A stretch of 49,124 nucleotides of DNA from Polyangiaceae bacterium (GTDB taxonomy: Bacteria; Myxococcota_A; Polyangia; Polyangiales; Polyangiaceae): assembly GCA_029261965.1 (NCBI GenBank), contig JAJDAH010000455.1, positions 1 through 49,124 of the forward strand. Reading direction: 5' to 3'. Within the stretch, counting starts at the first letter, position 1. Each line of letters begins with the position of its first letter. A model generated the notes under the pieces. The model did not search any database. It was not told the origin of the DNA and worked only from the letters and a program-made list of their open reading frames with translations. Positions 23,719 to 36,160 of this stretch are shown here, piece by piece. A program made the position numbers and the translations under genes.

Positions 23719-24780
23719 GTGAATCCGCCATCACTGACGGGCAGCGGAGTTTTCTCGAGTTATCTTCGTCACTTGAGAGACATTCCGTTCGTCCGCCGAG
23801 CAGACGTACGTACTAAAGTTGCGCGGGATGTCTACCCGGAACCGGACGGAGTTCTCGTCATCAAGACCCCGGTCGGGACGAAGCATTTTTGCGTCGAGCT
23901 CAAACGAACGCACCTGACCCGAGAGATTGTCGATTCCTTCGTCGAACGGACGCGAACCTCCCGCGAGTCTTGGATCCTTTTCGCTCGCCTGGTGGGCAGA
24001 CCACTAGGCGAAAGAATGGTTGCCAGTGGCCAAAATTTCGTCGACGAGCGCGGCAATCTCTATTTGAACATCCACGACAAGCTCGTCGCACGCACGCAAG
24101 GTCGCACGGTCCCTCGAGCAGAACGAGTGCAGCGCGGGCATGGTGTTCGAGCGGCAGGCTACCAAGCGCTGTTCACATTGCTCGCGGAGCCAAGTCTCCT
24201 CAACGCCTCCGTTCGCGCAATCGCTACGCATGGCGGCGTCAGCCGACAGACGGTCAACGACATGCGGCATCGCCTGATCGACGAAGGTTACTTGACGCGA
24301 CGCCGAAACCACTACGAGTGGATCGTATCGCGACGTGTTCGACTCGTCGAATTCTGGCTCGCGGGATACGCCGCAACACTTCGACCCGCACTGCTCGTGG
24401 GCTCGTACCGAACGAAACACGACGACGTAGGTGCGTTGGAAGCGTGGATAGCGGAGCGGCTTCGAACCGAGCCCATGTGGCGCTGGGGCGGGGCGGCGGC
24501 GGGAAATCGACTCGTTGGCCACTATCGGGGTCAGACGACGACTATCCACATGGTTGAGCCACCTTCAAACCTCGAAGAACGCCTACAGGCGCTCCGGGAT
24601 CCTCGAGGGCCGCTGGTGATTCTTCGAGCTCCAGGACCGATCTCGCTCGAGGGAGATCACCGCGAATGCGTACATCCGCTGCTCGTCTACGCCGAATTGA
24701 TGGCGAGCATCGACGACCGCGCGCACGACCTCGCCCACCTGCTCCGTGAACGCGTCCTGGAGGTCCAGTGGGCGCGTTGA
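23719..24780 (+). CDS. AbiEi-family antitoxin-like protein (type IV toxin-antitoxin)
   Basis: A 353-residue protein from GTG 23719. The N-terminal half has a PD-(D/E)xK-like arrangement (Asp43, then ELK with Glu60 and Lys62 in HFCVELKRTH). It is followed by a winged-helix region around residues 147-200 (AIATHGGVSRQTVNDMRHR, IDEGYL). The C-terminal part (LLVYAELMASIDDRAHD) matches the COG4861-type proteins annotated as AbiEi. In AbiE systems the antitoxin is a transcriptional repressor of its own operon and counters the nucleotidyltransferase toxin. The next gene starts inside the end of this one (13-base overlap). The palindrome at its promoter supports autoregulation. This is not the short two-domain AbiEi of streptococci. 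Confidence 0.75.
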   Translation: MNPPSLTGSGVFSSYLRHLRDIPFVRRADVRTKVARDVYPEPDGVLVIKTPVGTKHFCVELKRTHLTREIVDSFVERTRTSRESWILFARLVGRPLGERMVASGQNFVDERGNLYLNIHDKLVARTQGRTVPRAERVQRGHGVRAAGYQALFTLLAEPSLLNASVRAIATHGGVSRQTVNDMRHRLIDEGYLTRRRNHYEWIVSRRVRLVEFWLAGYAATLRPALLVGSYRTKHDDVGALEAWIAERLRTEPMWRWGGAAAGNRLVGHYRGQTTTIHMVEPPSNLEERLQALRDPRGPLVILRAPGPISLEGDHRECVHPLLVYAELMASIDDRAHDLAHLLRERVLEVQWAR

Positions 24781-25529
24781 GCGCGGCACAGATCGAGGTC
24801 CTCCGCGACCTCCGTCTCGCCTGGCCCGATCGACGGGTGATGCTGGTTGGCGCGCAGGCGCTCGCACAGCACATCGACATGTCGTACCGCGACACGAAAG
24901 ACATCGATTTCGCAGTCGCGGTGGACATGCCGGAAATTCCCGGCGACCTGGAAAGGTGTTTCGGCTGGAAGCGAGACGCGAAGCAGCTCCAGCGATTCAC
25001 TGCCCGCAACGGCCTGCTCGTCGACCTCGTGCCTACTGGTAGGAACCTTCTGGACGCCGGGTCCATCGAGTGGTCGGATGGGCGGATAATGAACCTCTCT
25101 GGCTTCGATCTGGCCTTCGAGCAGTCGACGCACGTTTCGGTGGCCGATGACTTGACGGTCGACCTCCCATCGGCACCGGCGCTTGCTCTGTTGAAAATGC
25201 AGGCGTGGCTCGACCGCAGAGCGCGCACGAACCGCGACATTCGCGATCTCGCACACCTATTCGAAACTTATGTACGCGAGGACGACGAACGCCGATGGAC
25301 CGGCGGGGTCGATGTCGAGATCGAATTCACGGAAGCGGGCGCGTTCTTGATCGGCATCGATATGGCGAAGATATGCAAAGAACGGCATCGCGACATTGTC
25401 ACCTCGTTCTTCGACGAGCTCGACCTCGCGAGTTGGATGTCCACGGGCCCGCCCCGATGGAATCTCGACGAAAACGTCGTCGAGAAAGTCAGAGCCGCAT
25501 TCGAGCTTGGGTTCAAGAAGAAGCAGTGA
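24768..25529 (+). CDS. AbiEii-like nucleotidyltransferase toxin
   Basis: A 253-residue protein from GTG 24768, overlapping the antitoxin gene by 13 bases. The nucleotidyltransferase core is visible: LVGAQALAQH (Gly28 region) and TKDIDFAV with Asp45 and Asp47 as metal ligands, followed by FTARNGLLVDLVP. LLKMQAWLDRRARTNRDIRDL and the C-terminal helices fit AbiEii/DUF1814-type enzymes. AbiEii toxins transfer nucleotides to cellular RNA or protein targets and cause growth arrest, often against phages. The target here is unknown. It ends 37 bases before the convergent caspase gene. Confidence 0.8.
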   Translation: MGALSAAQIEVLRDLRLAWPDRRVMLVGAQALAQHIDMSYRDTKDIDFAVAVDMPEIPGDLERCFGWKRDAKQLQRFTARNGLLVDLVPTGRNLLDAGSIEWSDGRIMNLSGFDLAFEQSTHVSVADDLTVDLPSAPALALLKMQAWLDRRARTNRDIRDLAHLFETYVREDDERRWTGGVDVEIEFTEAGAFLIGIDMAKICKERHRDIVTSFFDELDLASWMSTGPPRWNLDENVVEKVRAAFELGFKKKQ

Positions 25530-25566: not shown

Positions 25567-28500
25567 TCACGCACGCGAGCGGTGGCGCCGACGGCGTATT
25601 AGCCCCGCGAGCGCGAGCAGCGTGAGCAACGAGCTGCCGGCGATGTTCGCCGGGGCGGCTCGGCATCCGCACCCGTGCGGGGTTCTTGCCGGCGGCGGCG
25701 CGGGGCTCTGCGCCGCGGGGCTCGGCTCGGGGGCCTTCGTGCCAACGTCGGCTCGGTTCAGGATCGAGCGAGCCGAGGCGACGACGGGTAGCTGAATGTT
25801 CGCGGTCAAGTTGTCTCGGTCGACGGTGGGGTGCTGCGCGTTGCCGGTGGCTTTCGATACCGTCTCGGTAACGAAGCGTCGCAGCTCGTCGCTCGACACG
25901 AGACCATCGGCGTCGTCGTCGGCGCCCGGTCCGGTGAGAGCATCGAGCAGCGCTTCGGTGAAGACGCCGTTCTTGATCTCGTCCTTCTCCCACGACAGCT
26001 CCGAGCCTCGTGACGACGAGAGAACGATCGCGCCCGACCGACGGCGGAGGTCGTTGTCGATGTAGCGCTCGTCTTCGAAGAGGAAGCTCCGCTGCTCGGG
26101 CTTCTTTCCCGCAGCAGCTGGGGTGGCCGGTTGCTCGAGCACGAGCGCCCGGGTCGTTCTCGCTCGAAGCCCGCGGCTGCCGGGCGCTACGACGAGTCGC
26201 TCTTCCTCCTCCGGATCGCGCTCGCCGGACTCGCACGTGTCGAGCAGAAACAGCTTGTTGCGTGGCCCGATGCCGACGAGAAGCGACTCGATGAGCTCGA
26301 AGCTGGCTCCGGTTTGCCGGAGCCTGTCGATTCGGGTGTCGTGAGTCACGTAGTAGTAGTCCGCGGAAGCGTCGCGAGTGTGCACGCCGTGGCCGGCAAC
26401 GAAGAGCACCACCGTGTCGTCGACCTTCGCCTGAGCCAACCAGGGCTTCGCGTTGGCGATGGCAGTGGCGGTGACCTCTTGGTCGATGAGAGTCTTGACG
26501 TGCACCTGGCCGAAGTGAGCCTTGGCTTGCCGCAGCACGTCTGCCAGGTCGAGCACGTCCTTGTGCGGGTAGGCGAGGTTGTACTTCTCGTTGGCGTAGC
26601 GAGAGACTCCGAAACCGAGGAAGTAGAGGTCTGTCACCGGCTTCTTGCCATGCTCGAGCACACGAAACGGTCGAAACGACTCGATGCCAGCGCCGTCGGT
26701 GACGGAAACCTCGATCTTGTTGATCCCCGCCCCGAGCTCGATCGACTCGCGTGCGCGCTTTTTGCTCCCGGTGAGCGGTTTCCCTTCACGCGCGAACAGC
26801 GGCACGTCGTTGACGAACACGTTGTAGCTCTTGAGCCCCGCGGCTGCCGCGGCCTCGATCTCGAGCTCGGCGAGCTTGCCCTTCTGCTCGAGTGAAACGA
26901 ATCGCACCGTCGGCGCGCTTTCGAGCGCCTGGCCGAGCGCGGTCTCGCTCACTCCGAGTCGTCGGAGGCGCTTTTGGTACTGCGCTTCGAAGTGCGCCAC
27001 TCGCTCGGGCGGTCCGAATCCCAGTCGTTCGAACAAGAGGTCGGGACGGTTGCGCTGTGCCGCGAGCTGATCGACCCGATAGCCGCGCAGGCCGTGGCTC
27101 GCGATGAGGAGCCTTCCACCGTCGCGCGACGCGGTGAAGTACCCGTCGTCGCTGTAGATGACCCACTCTCGACCATCGCTCACGAGAGAGATGCGCTCGT
27201 GGCTTCGTACACGGTAGACCCGCGCTACCCCGTCGCTTCCCGCGGCGAGCAGCAGCTTGCCCTCGTCGTCGAAGGAGAGAGTCTGGGTGACGACGCTGCT
27301 CGACTCGGTTTCGTGCTGCACCTTCAGCGTGGATCCGTCGAGCAACTTGATGGATCCGTCGAGCGTCCCGATCGCAATGCGCTTGCCATCGGGCGAAGCG
27401 GCGGTGCTGAAGATGTCGTTCATGCTCACGCCGAGGCTCTTCTCGGTGTGTTTCGCGAGCAGTTTTTTGGATCGAAGATCGAACAAAAAGAGCCGATGCC
27501 CAAGGGCCGCCAGCAGCTTGCCGGACGCGAGCACTGTCGGCGTCGCGAACGGCATGGAAAGACCCTTCTTCGATTTCTTGATCGGATAATGTGAAACCGT
27601 TCCGGTGGTGGGGTCGGTCACCTGAAACCGGTCTCCCCGGTGGCGCGCGCGCGGTGGCTCGAGCTTTTTTCCGTCGACGCCGGCGATCGGCTCACCTGTC
27701 TCGAGGGAGTACCCACGCGCCATGCGGCCGAACGGACCGTCTCCGAAGATCCACAGCTCGTTGGCGCGGAACATCGTGCGCCGCGGCTCGGCAGGCGACA
27801 GCGTCCATCGATGGCGCCGCTCGCCCGTTTTCGCGTCGACGAGCTCGACGGATTCACCGACGATGGCGGCGAGCGAGCGCTGATCGGCAGACAAGCTGAG
27901 GCCGCGCAGAGAGTCGCGCTGCTTGCCTTCGAGCTCTCTCGACCACTCGAGTCGGAGGTCGCGAATGCTCCAGGACGTGATCGTGCGCTCGTGGACGACG
28001 AACGCGCGGGCGCCGTCCGGGCTCAGGCGGGCGCTACGCACGGGCCGCAGCCGAGCAAAAGCGGGTCGATGGGCGGCGCCCGTCGCCACGTCGCGATACT
28101 CGGGCTTACGGTACAGGCCGACGACGCGCTGCCCATCGCCGGTGAAGGCGATGCCGTTGCTCTGCAGATCGAAGCTGGCCCGAACCCGGCCGGTCTCGAC
28201 GTCGACGACTTTGACGCCGCTCCTGGGGCTACCGAACGCCGTCGCCGCGAGCTTCCCATCCGGCGAGAACGCGAGAGGCACGTCGCAGCAACTGGACATT
28301 CCCTTGACGACGTGGCGTTCGACGCGTGAGATCAGTTTTCCGGTCTCGAGGTTCCAGAGCAGCGCGAAGTGCGGAGATCCCGCGTTCTTCGACTTCTCGG
28401 CCACGGCGAGATCCGAAATGGCTCGCAGCCCGTCGGGCGAGACCTCCACGTCGTAGATGCTGTGTCGCTCGGCGACGCCGGGGTCGAGCCGCCCGACGAC

Positions 28501-29073
28501 CTTGCCCGAGCTGGCGTCCATCACCTCGAGCTTTCCGCTCGCGACGAGAAGGCGGTCTCGATCACGAAAAGCGATGCCCTGAGCGCCCGGGACCTCGGTC
28601 TTGCTCAGGCGCCGACCGCTGTCGACCTCGACCACGAGCACGAACCGCTCGTCGAATTTCCCGCTCGTGTGGGCGACCACCCCGAGCCTCGTGCCGTCGG
28701 GCGAGTAGGCTGCTGTTCTCGGGACCAGCTTGCCGATTTCGAGCTCGCGATGCTTGCCGGTCTCGAAGTCGTAGATCCACAGCGGTGCTCGATTCAGGAC
28801 CACTTTTGGTCCGGTGGGTGATATCGCCAGCGGCCAGCCGAGTGGCTGCGCGCGGCTGCCGAGCGTGCGCAGAAGAATGCCGCGCTCGAGGTCCCAAATG
28901 GAGAGCCGAACGTCGTGCGCGGTGACTGCCCACTTGCGATCCGGCGAAATCGAAACCCGCAAGCCCTCTGCACTCGACAGCTGCGGGACGAGCTGGACCC
29001 CCGAGGCTCCGCTGGCGACCGACGTGGCCAAACAAGCTACCGCGAAAGCGAAAATCGCGACCGTCCTGGTCAT
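25567..29073 (-). CDS. Secreted WD40-like propeller and caspase (peptidase C14) with MYXO-CTERM tail
   Basis: ATG 29073 is preferred over 29187 because it gives a signal peptide (FAFAVACLATSVASGASG). The 1168-residue protein has WD40/propeller repeats over about residues 25-640 (SPDRKWAVTAHDVRLSIWD, SPDGKRIAIGTLDGSIKLL). A caspase domain follows from about 830 with the catalytic His895 in VAGHGVH and Cys947 in LLDTCESGE. It ends in a MYXO-CTERM signal: Cys residues in HGCGCRAAP, a hydrophobic helix and RRRRHRSR. Such tails are cleaved and anchor proteins at the surface in Myxococcota. Most bacterial caspases are cytoplasmic, so an exported one is unusual. The substrate is unknown. Confidence 0.9.
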   Translation of the reverse strand: MTRTVAIFAFAVACLATSVASGASGVQLVPQLSSAEGLRVSISPDRKWAVTAHDVRLSIWDLERGILLRTLGSRAQPLGWPLAISPTGPKVVLNRAPLWIYDFETGKHRELEIGKLVPRTAAYSPDGTRLGVVAHTSGKFDERFVLVVEVDSGRRLSKTEVPGAQGIAFRDRDRLLVASGKLEVMDASSGKVVGRLDPGVAERHSIYDVEVSPDGLRAISDLAVAEKSKNAGSPHFALLWNLETGKLISRVERHVVKGMSSCCDVPLAFSPDGKLAATAFGSPRSGVKVVDVETGRVRASFDLQSNGIAFTGDGQRVVGLYRKPEYRDVATGAAHRPAFARLRPVRSARLSPDGARAFVVHERTITSWSIRDLRLEWSRELEGKQRDSLRGLSLSADQRSLAAIVGESVELVDAKTGERRHRWTLSPAEPRRTMFRANELWIFGDGPFGRMARGYSLETGEPIAGVDGKKLEPPRARHRGDRFQVTDPTTGTVSHYPIKKSKKGLSMPFATPTVLASGKLLAALGHRLFLFDLRSKKLLAKHTEKSLGVSMNDIFSTAASPDGKRIAIGTLDGSIKLLDGSTLKVQHETESSSVVTQTLSFDDEGKLLLAAGSDGVARVYRVRSHERISLVSDGREWVIYSDDGYFTASRDGGRLLIASHGLRGYRVDQLAAQRNRPDLLFERLGFGPPERVAHFEAQYQKRLRRLGVSETALGQALESAPTVRFVSLEQKGKLAELEIEAAAAAGLKSYNVFVNDVPLFAREGKPLTGSKKRARESIELGAGINKIEVSVTDGAGIESFRPFRVLEHGKKPVTDLYFLGFGVSRYANEKYNLAYPHKDVLDLADVLRQAKAHFGQVHVKTLIDQEVTATAIANAKPWLAQAKVDDTVVLFVAGHGVHTRDASADYYYVTHDTRIDRLRQTGASFELIESLLVGIGPRNKLFLLDTCESGERDPEEEERLVVAPGSRGLRARTTRALVLEQPATPAAAGKKPEQRSFLFEDERYIDNDLRRRSGAIVLSSSRGSELSWEKDEIKNGVFTEALLDALTGPGADDDADGLVSSDELRRFVTETVSKATGNAQHPTVDRDNLTANIQLPVVASARSILNRADVGTKAPEPSPAAQSPAPPPARTPHGCGCRAAPANIAGSSLLTLLALAGLIRRRRHRSRA

Positions 29074-32581: not shown

Positions 32582-33679
32582 ATGCCGGAAGCCTCGAACC
32601 CTTCGCTCCTGTCTGCCCGCCCATTGGGGCGATTTGGCCGCCTGGTCGCGGCCGGTGCGTGCGGCTGCGCGCTCGTTGCGGTCGGCTGCGGCGACGGCGA
32701 AAACGGCAAGACGGATCCTGTAGACGCGGGCTCGTCGTGGAGCACCACCTTTCAGGGCCTTCAGGGGGCCCTGATTTCGATTTGGGGCTCGGACGAAAGC
32801 GACGTTTGGGCGGTCGGGAGCGATCCACTCGATGGCGATGGTCCGCTCGTTCTGCGCTACGACGGATCGAATTGGTCGCGGCTCCGAGCCAGCGCGTCGG
32901 GCGACCTGTGGTGGGTCCACGGGGTTTCCGACGGATCGGTGTTGGTTGGTGGGGCGGACGGTGTGATCCTCGAATATCGAGATGCGGTCTTTCGTCCGCA
33001 AACGACTCCATCCAGTCAAGGGACGGTTTTCGGGATCTGGGCCGCCGGTCCGGATGATGTTTGGGCCGTAGGCGGCGATCTCGAAGGCGGAACCGGAGCG
33101 TTCGTGTGGCGTCGCGGAGCGACGGGCTGGACGAACATCGATCTGCCGCCGGAGATCTCGGGCGACGCGTTTTTCAAAGTGTGGGGTCGGGGGTCGGACG
33201 ACGTGTGGATGGTGGGCAGCACTGGCACTTCGCTCCACTACGACGGGACGTCGCTCACGGCGGTGGCCACAGGCCAGGACCCGCTCTTCACCGTTCATGC
33301 GAGCCCGGACCGTTGGTGTGCCGTCGGCGGGTTCGACCTCGCTACGCTACTCGAACACGATGGCTCGGGGGCCTGGGCGCCGGTCGAGACCCCAGCGTCG
33401 ACTCGTCAGCTATTCGGCGTGTGGCTCACGGCCCAAGGCGGTTGGGCGGTGGGTGTAGACGGCACGGTGCTCCGCCGCGACGCGAGCGGGTGGTTGCGCG
33501 AAGACACGGGACTCGAAAACGACGTGGCATTTCACGCGGTCTGGGTGGACCCGGGCGGCAGCGTTTGGGCAGTTGGCGGCGACGTGCTCGTCCCTCCGCT
33601 CGGGCGAGGCACACTGGTTCGCCGGGGGGATCCGGTTCCCGCAGGGCGGTTGGAGGTGATCGATGCGATCGGCAAATAG
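32582..33679 (+). CDS. Beta-propeller lipoprotein (WAVG repeats), first gene of a four-gene overlap cluster
   Basis: A 365-residue lipoprotein (LVAVGC, Cys36). The mature part consists of about six repeats with the signature SDESDVWAVGS, DDVWAVGGD, DDVWMVGSTG and GSVWAVGGD, each followed by a strand such as LVLRYDGSNWSRL. This is the BNR/Kelch-like propeller pattern common in Myxococcota surface proteins. Its last 17 bases overlap the next gene (33663-33679). Function is unknown; protein or glycan binding is the usual guess. The overlap suggests coordinated production with the three following proteins. Confidence 0.8.
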   Translation: MPEASNPSLLSARPLGRFGRLVAAGACGCALVAVGCGDGENGKTDPVDAGSSWSTTFQGLQGALISIWGSDESDVWAVGSDPLDGDGPLVLRYDGSNWSRLRASASGDLWWVHGVSDGSVLVGGADGVILEYRDAVFRPQTTPSSQGTVFGIWAAGPDDVWAVGGDLEGGTGAFVWRRGATGWTNIDLPPEISGDAFFKVWGRGSDDVWMVGSTGTSLHYDGTSLTAVATGQDPLFTVHASPDRWCAVGGFDLATLLEHDGSGAWAPVETPASTRQLFGVWLTAQGGWAVGVDGTVLRRDASGWLREDTGLENDVAFHAVWVDPGGSVWAVGGDVLVPPLGRGTLVRRGDPVPAGRLEVIDAIGK

Positions 33680-34916
33680 TCGAGTGATCGGGCGGCGCTG
33701 TGCGGCCGCGGTCGCTGCGCTCGCTCTGCTGTCGGGTTGCGGTGGCGGCACCGAGCGTGAGCCCGAGCCTGGGGACATCACCGGCTGGGCCGGCGACGGG
33801 ACGCAGGGGCATGACGGCGACGGAAATCATCGGACCGAGTCATGGCTGAACCAACCGATGGAGATCGTCTTCGCCTCCGATGGATCGGGGTACATCGTCG
33901 ACTGGAACAATCACGCGATCCGGCGTGTTTCCCCTGACGGCATTCTCGAAACGGTTCTAGGCGCGGAATTGCCGGGCGACTGGCCGTGTCAGACGCCGGA
34001 AGATCCTGCCAACTGCGAAGTTCCTCTCGACCAGCCCGCCGACGCGAGTCGGGTTCGGCTCAACCATCCGACCGATCTCGTGTTCGACGGAAAAGTCGCG
34101 TTCATTGCGGCGTGGCACAACCACAAGGTCGAGCGATTCGATCTCGACCAGTCCGTGGTCGAGGTCATTGCTGGTCGGGAAAAACCCGGGTTTGCCGGGG
34201 ACGACGGACCAGCCGCCGACGCATTGATGAACTTTCCCGATTCCATCGTGCTCGACGCGAGCGGTGCCCTCGTCGTCTCCGACGAGCGTAACAATCGGGT
34301 ACGGCGCATCGTCGGCGAGAACCCGCGCATGATCTCGACCGTCGTCGGATCACGCACCGAATCGGGGTTCGCCGGGGCGGATGTGCCGGCGACCGAATCG
34401 GAAGTGGCCTTCAGCCCGTACAACGAGGCGGGTGGCGCGGATAACCCGCCTCCGGGTGCGGGCCTCGCCCTCGATGCCGACGGCAACCTCTACCTCGCCG
34501 ACACGTTCAATCATTGTGTTCGTCGAGTGGCGCCCGGGGCGGACGGTCTTTTGGGTGCCGGGGACCCGCTCGAAGAAATCATCACGACAGTTGCCGGCGA
34601 ATGCGGCGTAGAGGGGTTCGCCGGCGACGGCGGTCCCGCGGCCGAGGCGCGCTTGCGCCACCCGCACGACATCGAGATTGGCCCCGACGGGAGAATCTAC
34701 GTCGCTGACACCGACAACCACGCCATCCGACGAATCGATCCGGCCACCGGCGTCATCGACACCGTGGCGGGGACTGGCACCGCGGGAGATGCCGGCGATG
34801 GCGGACCGGCAGTGCAGGCCCAGCTCCGGCGGCCCTATGGTCTGGCCTTCGATCCCGCCGGGGATCTCTTCGTGGTCGACACGGGCAACAACCGAATCAG
34901 GAAGATCGTGCAATGA
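33663..34916 (+). CDS. NHL-repeat propeller lipoprotein
   Basis: A 417-residue lipoprotein (LALLSGC, Cys26). Repeats of the NHL type fill the mature part: LNQPMEIVFASDGSGYIVDW with NNHAIRRV, LNHPTDLVFDGKVAFIAAWH, FPDSIVLDASGALVVSDERN, LRHPHDIEIGPDGRIYVAD and TGNNRIRKI at the end. Gaps between blades carry FAGDGGPA loops. It starts inside the previous gene and its stop overlaps the next start (ATGA at 34913-34916). NHL propellers bind proteins or RNA in other systems; here the protein is outside the cytoplasm, so a protein or polymer ligand is likely. Confidence 0.85.
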   Translation: MRSANSRVIGRRCAAAVAALALLSGCGGGTEREPEPGDITGWAGDGTQGHDGDGNHRTESWLNQPMEIVFASDGSGYIVDWNNHAIRRVSPDGILETVLGAELPGDWPCQTPEDPANCEVPLDQPADASRVRLNHPTDLVFDGKVAFIAAWHNHKVERFDLDQSVVEVIAGREKPGFAGDDGPAADALMNFPDSIVLDASGALVVSDERNNRVRRIVGENPRMISTVVGSRTESGFAGADVPATESEVAFSPYNEAGGADNPPPGAGLALDADGNLYLADTFNHCVRRVAPGADGLLGAGDPLEEIITTVAGECGVEGFAGDGGPAAEARLRHPHDIEIGPDGRIYVADTDNHAIRRIDPATGVIDTVAGTGTAGDAGDGGPAVQAQLRRPYGLAFDPAGDLFVVDTGNNRIRKIVQ

Positions 34917-36160
34917 ACCGAGCAGCGTGCGTCTCATGGGCTTTGCTGCTCGCCGGGTGCGGCGGCAGCCCGTCGACCCCGAGCATCGAGGACCTCGAGC
35001 CTGGACAGATCGGGACCTTCGCCGGCGCCGGACAGCGTGCGACCGATCCCGTCGGTGGTGCTCCCATCGAGCTGCTCGAGGCGCGTTTCGATTCCCCAAT
35101 GGACGTCGTCGTCGCGCCGAACGGCGAGCTATACATTCTCGACTGGAACGGCCACAAAGTTCGCGTCGTTCGAGACGGCAAAGTGGCTTTCGTGGTGGGG
35201 ACGGGCACCGAGGGTGACGCCTGCGAAACGACTCCCGACGGGGAGTCGTGCCCGGCGACCGCTGCCCAGCTCAATCATCCGACCGACGTCACCTTCGACG
35301 ACTCCGGGGGGATGCTGGTGGCGGCGTGGCACAACTCGAAAATCAAGCGCGTGGATCTCGAGCAGGGCCTGGTTTCCGACGTTTGCGGCAACGGCGGGCG
35401 GAACTTTCGGGGGGACGGCGGGCCCTGTCGCGAAGGAGACCAGGACCTGGTTTCGTTCGACTTGCCATCCGGTGTGGTGCGGGATCCCTTCGGTAATCTA
35501 TTCATTTCGGATCAGGCCAACATGGTCGTCCGGCGGCTCGGCACCGACGGGATCATCGACACAGTGGCTGGAGATTGCCCCTTGTCGATGGGTTTTGGGT
35601 GCAGTCGCGGTCGCGGGTACGTCGGCGATGGTGGTCCCGCGACCGGGGCCTTGCTCAACAACAGCATCGGTCAAGGAACAGATCCTCAGGGCAAGATCGC
35701 GCTCGGTCCCGACGGAAGCCTTTACATCGCCGACACCGGGAACCACGTCGTGAGAAAGGTCTCGCCCGGGCCGGACGGCGTCATCGGTGACGGCGATCCG
35801 AACGAGGAGATCATCACGACGATTGCCGGCACGGGCGAAGCAGGATTTTCGGGCGATGGTGGGCCCGCGAACGAGGCCGCTCTGCAGCTACCAACCGACG
35901 TGGAAATAGGTCCCGACGGATCGATCTTCGTGGCGGATCGAGGCAACCATTGTGTTCGTCGGATCGACGCCGACGGCATGATTTCCTCGGTGGCTGGTCG
36001 GTGCGGGTCCGCGGGCTACGACGGAGATGGCGGAGACGCCGGCGCCGCGCACCTCGATACACCCTACGGGATCGGCGTCGACGAGCAGGGCCTTCTCTAC
36101 ATCGCCGACACGCTCAACCATTGCATTCGTGTCGTATTGCCATCGGAGGCCGGCGGTTGA
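34913..36160 (+). CDS. NHL-repeat propeller lipoprotein, paralogue of the preceding gene
   Basis: A 415-residue lipoprotein (ALLLAGC, Cys16), similar in length and repeat pattern to the preceding protein: GELYILDWNGHKVRVV, LNHPTDVTFDDSGGMLVAAW, GNLFISDQANMVVRR and YIADTGNHVVRKV. Extra cysteines occur in ACETTPDGESCPA and GDCPLSMGFGCSRG. The two genes form a tandem duplication with a four-base overlap. The stop overlaps the next frame as TTGA. A pair of interacting propellers is the simplest reading; whether they form a heterodimer is unknown. Confidence 0.85.
   Translation: MNRAACVSWALLLAGCGGSPSTPSIEDLEPGQIGTFAGAGQRATDPVGGAPIELLEARFDSPMDVVVAPNGELYILDWNGHKVRVVRDGKVAFVVGTGTEGDACETTPDGESCPATAAQLNHPTDVTFDDSGGMLVAAWHNSKIKRVDLEQGLVSDVCGNGGRNFRGDGGPCREGDQDLVSFDLPSGVVRDPFGNLFISDQANMVVRRLGTDGIIDTVAGDCPLSMGFGCSRGRGYVGDGGPATGALLNNSIGQGTDPQGKIALGPDGSLYIADTGNHVVRKVSPGPDGVIGDGDPNEEIITTIAGTGEAGFSGDGGPANEAALQLPTDVEIGPDGSIFVADRGNHCVRRIDADGMISSVAGRCGSAGYDGDGGDAGAAHLDTPYGIGVDEQGLLYIADTLNHCIRVVLPSEAGG

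Follow-up and report, generated by a model that had tools for sequence, protein, structure and literature searches.

Positions 25,567 to 29,073 of the window (the whole 49,124-nucleotide stretch of Polyangiaceae DNA analyzed here) were confirmed as a real gene. Its product is a single chain that runs from a signal peptide through a WD40 double propeller, an Ig-like domain, and a C14 caspase to a MYXO-CTERM tail. The best reading of this product, to which we give a probability of roughly 0.55, is an exported, surface-tethered, probably Ca2+-dependent and arginine-specific, self-processing protease.

Gene and domain anatomy

The open reading frame begins with an ATG at 29073 and its stop codon ends at 25567; GC content at the three codon positions is 0.67/0.49/0.81, the pattern expected for a coding frame in this 65% GC genome (9.59 Mb in 480 contigs). 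The features of the gene and its product are as follows:

25567..29073 (-): caspase gene, whole; 1,168 aa, coordinates including the stop codon
29005..29073 (-): signal peptide, residues 1-23; type I by inspection, pLDDT <50 at 1-23
27094..28995 (-): WD40 double beta-propeller, residues 27-660; Pfam matches, model, and fold match
26917..27075 (-): helical connector, residues 667-719; predicted structure
26638..26916 (-): Ig-like beta-sandwich, residues 720-812; from the strand pattern of the model, not matched separately
25750..26637 (-): caspase domain (p20, linker, p10), residues 813-1108; Pfam, model, and fold match
26557..26559 (-): Asp839; invariant, in the first turns of helix alpha1, proposed S1-pocket acid
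26389..26391 (-): catalytic His895; motif context and alignment
26239..26241 (-): Asp945; two residues before Cys947, proposed S1-pocket acid
26233..26235 (-): catalytic Cys947; motif context and alignment
26158..26160 (-): Arg972 of the p20-p10 linker (RGLRAR972TTR); invariant 37/37, proposed self-cleavage site
25885..25920 (-): EF-hand-like loop DDDADGLVSSDE, residues 1052-1063; present in 31/37 sequences
25675..25749 (-): Pro/Ala-rich C-terminal spacer, residues 1109-1133; predicted disordered
25570..25674 (-): MYXO-CTERM tail (GCGC, hydrophobic helix, RRRR), residues 1134-1168; TIGR03901

This architecture bears out the sequence-only reading, which had placed a signal peptide, a propeller of about 600 residues, a caspase, and a MYXO-CTERM tail in a single chain; the helical connector, the Ig-like sandwich, and the EF-hand-like loop are additions to that reading. 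Pfam gave WD40-type propeller matches across the N-terminal part, and a fold search matched residues 27 to 660, about 630 residues, to tandem seven-bladed WD40 structures such as AIP1 (1nr0) and Pwp2. The AlphaFold2 model of the whole chain, built on a 37-sequence alignment, has a pLDDT of 81.4, with very low confidence at residues 1 to 23 and from 1110 to the end, one residue excepted; the sandwich-caspase part modeled alone reached 89.3. The caspase model matched GSU0716 of Geobacter (3bij; Z 22.6), Arabidopsis metacaspase 4 (AtMC4, 6w8s; Z 21.6), and MALT1 (8V4X; Z 20.9), while a profile of the Ig-caspase region found nothing among the sequences of solved structures at an E value of 0.01.

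Conserved residues of the caspase domain

Peptidase_C14 (PF00656) matched residues 821 to 1092 at 71.5 bits against a cut-off of 21.4; the profile of EACC1-associated caspases (NF047832) scored 75.2 bits, below its cut-off of 140. The catalytic dyad lies where the sequence-only reading had located it, His895 within FVAGHGVH and Cys947 within LLDTCESG, and these two residues, together with Asp839, Asp945, and Arg972, are each invariant in all 37 aligned sequences, across phyla. The S1 residues of TbMCA2 are Asp95 and Asp211 (PMC4357240), and the acid two residues before the cysteine of AtMC4 is Asp137 (PMC7206013); Asp839 and Asp945 correspond to TbMCA2 Asp95 and Asp211 by motif and secondary structure rather than by residue-level superposition. 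Characterized C14 enzymes other than animal caspases prefer Arg or Lys (PMC5756287). At the position two residues before the catalytic histidine, where TbMCA2 and AtMC4 both have a serine, the window caspase has Ala893.

One arginine of the hypervariable p20-p10 linker, Arg972, is invariant. When the linkers were shuffled internally 40 times and realigned in the same way, the best arginine column reached at most 19/37, against the 37/37 observed; the linker is modeled at low confidence, and the placement of Arg972 relative to the active site is not given by the model. In AtMC4, linker Lys225 occupies the pocket that contains the Asp two residues before the cysteine and keeps the active site closed until Ca2+ sets off cleavage at this lysine (PMC7206013). 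The EF-hand-like loop is located in p10 and differs from the known Ca2+ site of TbMCA2; Ca2+ motifs of the EF-hand class occur preferentially in proteins that are periplasmic, surface-located, or secreted (PMC3123361). From the invariance of Arg972, the AtMC4 precedent, and the EF-hand-like loop, we propose that the enzyme may cleave itself after Arg972 in Ca2+-rich surroundings. The conservation of the S1-type acids, Arg972, and the loop suggests this mechanism.

Export signal and sorting tail

By inspection, the N-terminus reads as a type I signal peptide, with a hydrophobic stretch at about residues 5 to 19 followed by TSVASGAS; an automatic lipoprotein (LIPO) label was dropped on the same inspection. 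At the other end, TIGR03901 (MYXO-CTERM) matched residues 1134 to 1163 at 22.0 bits in the full chain and at 26.6 when the tail was scored by itself (cut-off 20), one of 50 such matches in the host genome. The same genome encodes the myxosortase MrtC (NF040594; 280.7 bits against a cut-off of 195) and the type II secretin GspD (469.6 bits against 351). Surface anchoring of TraA in Myxococcus xanthus depends on the myxosortase MrtX, which cuts the TraA tail, and cysteine lipidation and type II secretion transport of TraA have been proposed (PMC11980579). Taken with the sequence itself and the nearest relatives described below, MrtC and the secretin support the export and C-terminal anchoring that the sequence-only reading had proposed. 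A search of the open-access literature for a caspase linked to a myxosortase returned none, an absence that holds for open-access papers.

A family of exported caspases and an apparent change of anchor

A profile search of genome contigs with a four-sequence alignment recovered 60 loci in Spirochaetota, Delongbacteria, Desulfobacteria, Bacteroidota, Planctomycetota, Verrucomicrobiota, Pseudomonadota, and Myxococcota. Nearly all full-length members keep the His/Cys dyad and have an N-terminal signal peptide, either type I or lipoprotein, as called by a simple and crude hydropathy and motif rule and checked by eye. The long form was found in 11 of 377 genomes of the phylum (profile A4, E 1e-60), and its distribution is therefore patchy; viral contigs held no relative. 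The window caspase belongs to this widespread family of exported bacterial caspases, and its tail characterizes the small branch within the family to which it belongs.

In most Myxococcota members, a Pro/Ala/Ser-rich stretch comes after a lipobox, and the majority of these proteins stop right after the caspase. In the window caspase, the signal peptide runs straight into the propeller and the spacer is C-terminal, ahead of the cysteine motif. Its nearest relative, L104, has the same plan, with a tail that exceeds two curated cut-offs, and L106, whose N-terminus is missing, has a tail at 18.4 bits, just below the cut-off of 20; the three form one clade (SH-aLRT 99). Elsewhere, L133 has a weak MYXO-CTERM tail (13.4 bits), a few members have a signal peptide but neither anchor (L141, and L091 with ankyrin repeats instead), and no clear case of both anchors together was seen among the Myxococcota relatives. 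The sequence-only reading had held that absence of the tail in homologues would count against it; most homologues do lack the tail, but L104 and L106 have one, and others carry a different anchor or a signal peptide. From its distribution, the tail looks like a branch-specific swap of one lipid anchor for another, the direction of which is not proved.

Several members of the family differ in other ways. L091 (the same as L128) is a paralogue with a signal peptide and about 360 residues of ankyrin-like repeats after the caspase, and its genome also encodes two lipobox paralogues, L048 and L090. By inspection, the C-terminal domain that follows the caspase in the Spirochaete members L131 and L134 resembles FGE-sulfatase. 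L094 has the GHG, but its DxCxxG motif was not found, making it a possible pseudo-caspase. Separately from these, L039, one 1,205-aa frame of G018, has two C14 matches.

Exported C14 proteins are common, and the premise that known bacterial caspases act inside cells fails as a rule. By a crude test, 20 of 40 C14 proteins sampled in the host's taxonomic family score as exported, although a few of these calls are doubtful, and a 2012 survey assigned extracellular or N-terminal-helix topology to many C14 proteins and proposed extracellular roles (PMC3501461). The only other C14 protein of the host genome (L001, 1039-2175, + strand; 378 aa) is itself a predicted lipoprotein, with a lipobox start of FVWAAC followed by GAPQ. 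Smaller myxobacterial C14 proteins with a signal peptide include L220, L221, L222, L224, L226, L227, L228, L230, and L231, and likewise L008, L009, L023, and L030; the C-terminal end of all of these resembles an outer-membrane beta-barrel on inspection, and they are perhaps a second type of exported caspase.

Alternative explanations

The protein could instead face the periplasm, exported and anchored inside the outer membrane, with a part in maturing envelope proteins or controlling their quality, as its lipobox relatives may have. Among the myxobacterial relatives, most are predicted to be N-terminal lipoproteins, which usually sit on the periplasmic face, and a signal peptide alone is present in many of the relatives from Spirochaetes and Delongbacteria. 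Against this, TraA of M. xanthus is brought to the cell surface by its MYXO-CTERM (PMC11980579), and both GspD and MrtC are encoded in the host genome. We regard this placement as unlikely, though worth serious consideration. The other question of anchoring concerns Cys14 in FAVAC, a substandard lipobox that, if it worked as in the relatives, would make the protein an N-terminal or doubly anchored lipoprotein. It matches a loose lipobox pattern, and some relatives also have Ala at -3, but the cysteine comes as early as position 14, is followed by the hydrophobic LATSV with no N-terminal spacer, and has no equivalent in L104; a working lipobox is improbable.

Pseudo-enzymes exist among bacterial caspases (PMC6426788), and the propeller and caspase fold might simply bind a partner without cutting; given that the catalytic residues, the S1 acids, and the linker arginine are invariant across phyla, a silent scaffold of this kind seems very improbable. 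We give least credence, and very little, to an intracellular death or anti-phage effector tied to the neighboring AbiEi/AbiEii-like type IV toxin-antitoxin pair (window 23719-25529, + strand). The pair ends only 38 bases from the caspase gene but is convergent with it, so the two form no operon and the pair was not taken as a partner; moreover, relatives share no conserved neighbor, export signals occur throughout the family, and the PADLOC caspase match is weak (29.6 bits). A conserved neighboring gene had been considered as a partner and was dropped, as the largest clusters consisted mainly of antisense frames of the caspase gene. Farther along the window, two NHL-repeat proteins lie side by side in tandem (33663-36160, + strand).

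Proposed route and activation

From the sequence anatomy, predicted fold, and conservation of the window caspase and the sorting machinery of its genome, a route for the surface-tethered protease can be proposed. Sec would export the chain, the MYXO-CTERM tail would retain it in the inner membrane, Cys1135 or Cys1137 would be lipidated, the host MrtC would cut the tail, and type II secretion would carry the protein to the outer surface. There, the double propeller and Ig-like domain may bind a protein and thereby present or regulate the caspase, a metacaspase-like protease probably specific for Arg/Lys; the Ca2+-rich surroundings outside the cytoplasm would fill the EF-hand-like loop of p10, and the enzyme would cut its own linker after Arg972. 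We infer lipidation, surface location, arginine specificity, Ca2+ control, and self-cleavage by homology. Candidate roles are surface-protein processing, kin interaction, and predation, and sequence cannot separate prey, kin, and self substrates. A more specific picture is tentative and rather unlikely to hold in full: an Arg-specific caspase that is gated by Ca2+ and processes itself, that myxosortase displays on the outer surface of the myxobacterium, and whose tandem propeller is the recognition head would act on the proteins of other cells, in a branch that moved lipid anchor and spacer from the N- to the C-terminus.

Relation to known systems

The window caspase shares with bacterial metacaspases and orthocaspases (C14, PF00656) the caspase fold, the His/Cys dyad, the Asp two residues before the Cys, the acid in helix alpha1, and the basic linker residue. 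It differs from them in its export signal, in carrying a double propeller and an Ig-like domain ahead of the caspase, and in the C-terminal sorting tail; no partner gene was found. AtMC4 (6W8S) and MALT1 (8V4X) are among the closest solved folds, at about 17 to 23% identity. Once Ca2+ is supplied, AtMC4 cleaves its own linker at a basic residue, as proposed for the window caspase, and the paracaspase MALT1 resembles the window caspase in the Ig-like domains that adjoin its caspase domain, but both are eukaryotic and intracellular. MYXO-CTERM surface proteins such as TraA of M. xanthus likewise have a signal peptide and a cysteine motif, hydrophobic helix, and Arg-rich end, with a myxosortase in the genome; TraA is a cell-cell recognition receptor, whereas the window protein has a caspase instead. 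Gingipains and clostripain belong to peptidase families different from C14 and are not known to have a WD40 propeller. These enzymes (C25 and C11, respectively) are exported, Arg-specific, Ca2+-linked proteases of clan CD (PMC4357240).

The window protein would thus tie a caspase to a surface-sorting pathway, and it draws attention to exported WD40-Ig-caspases as a broad family that has been little described. That the anchored end appears to have switched within one family suggests selection on membrane tethering itself, and with the conserved linker arginine and the EF-hand-like loop, activation outside the cytoplasm can be tested directly.
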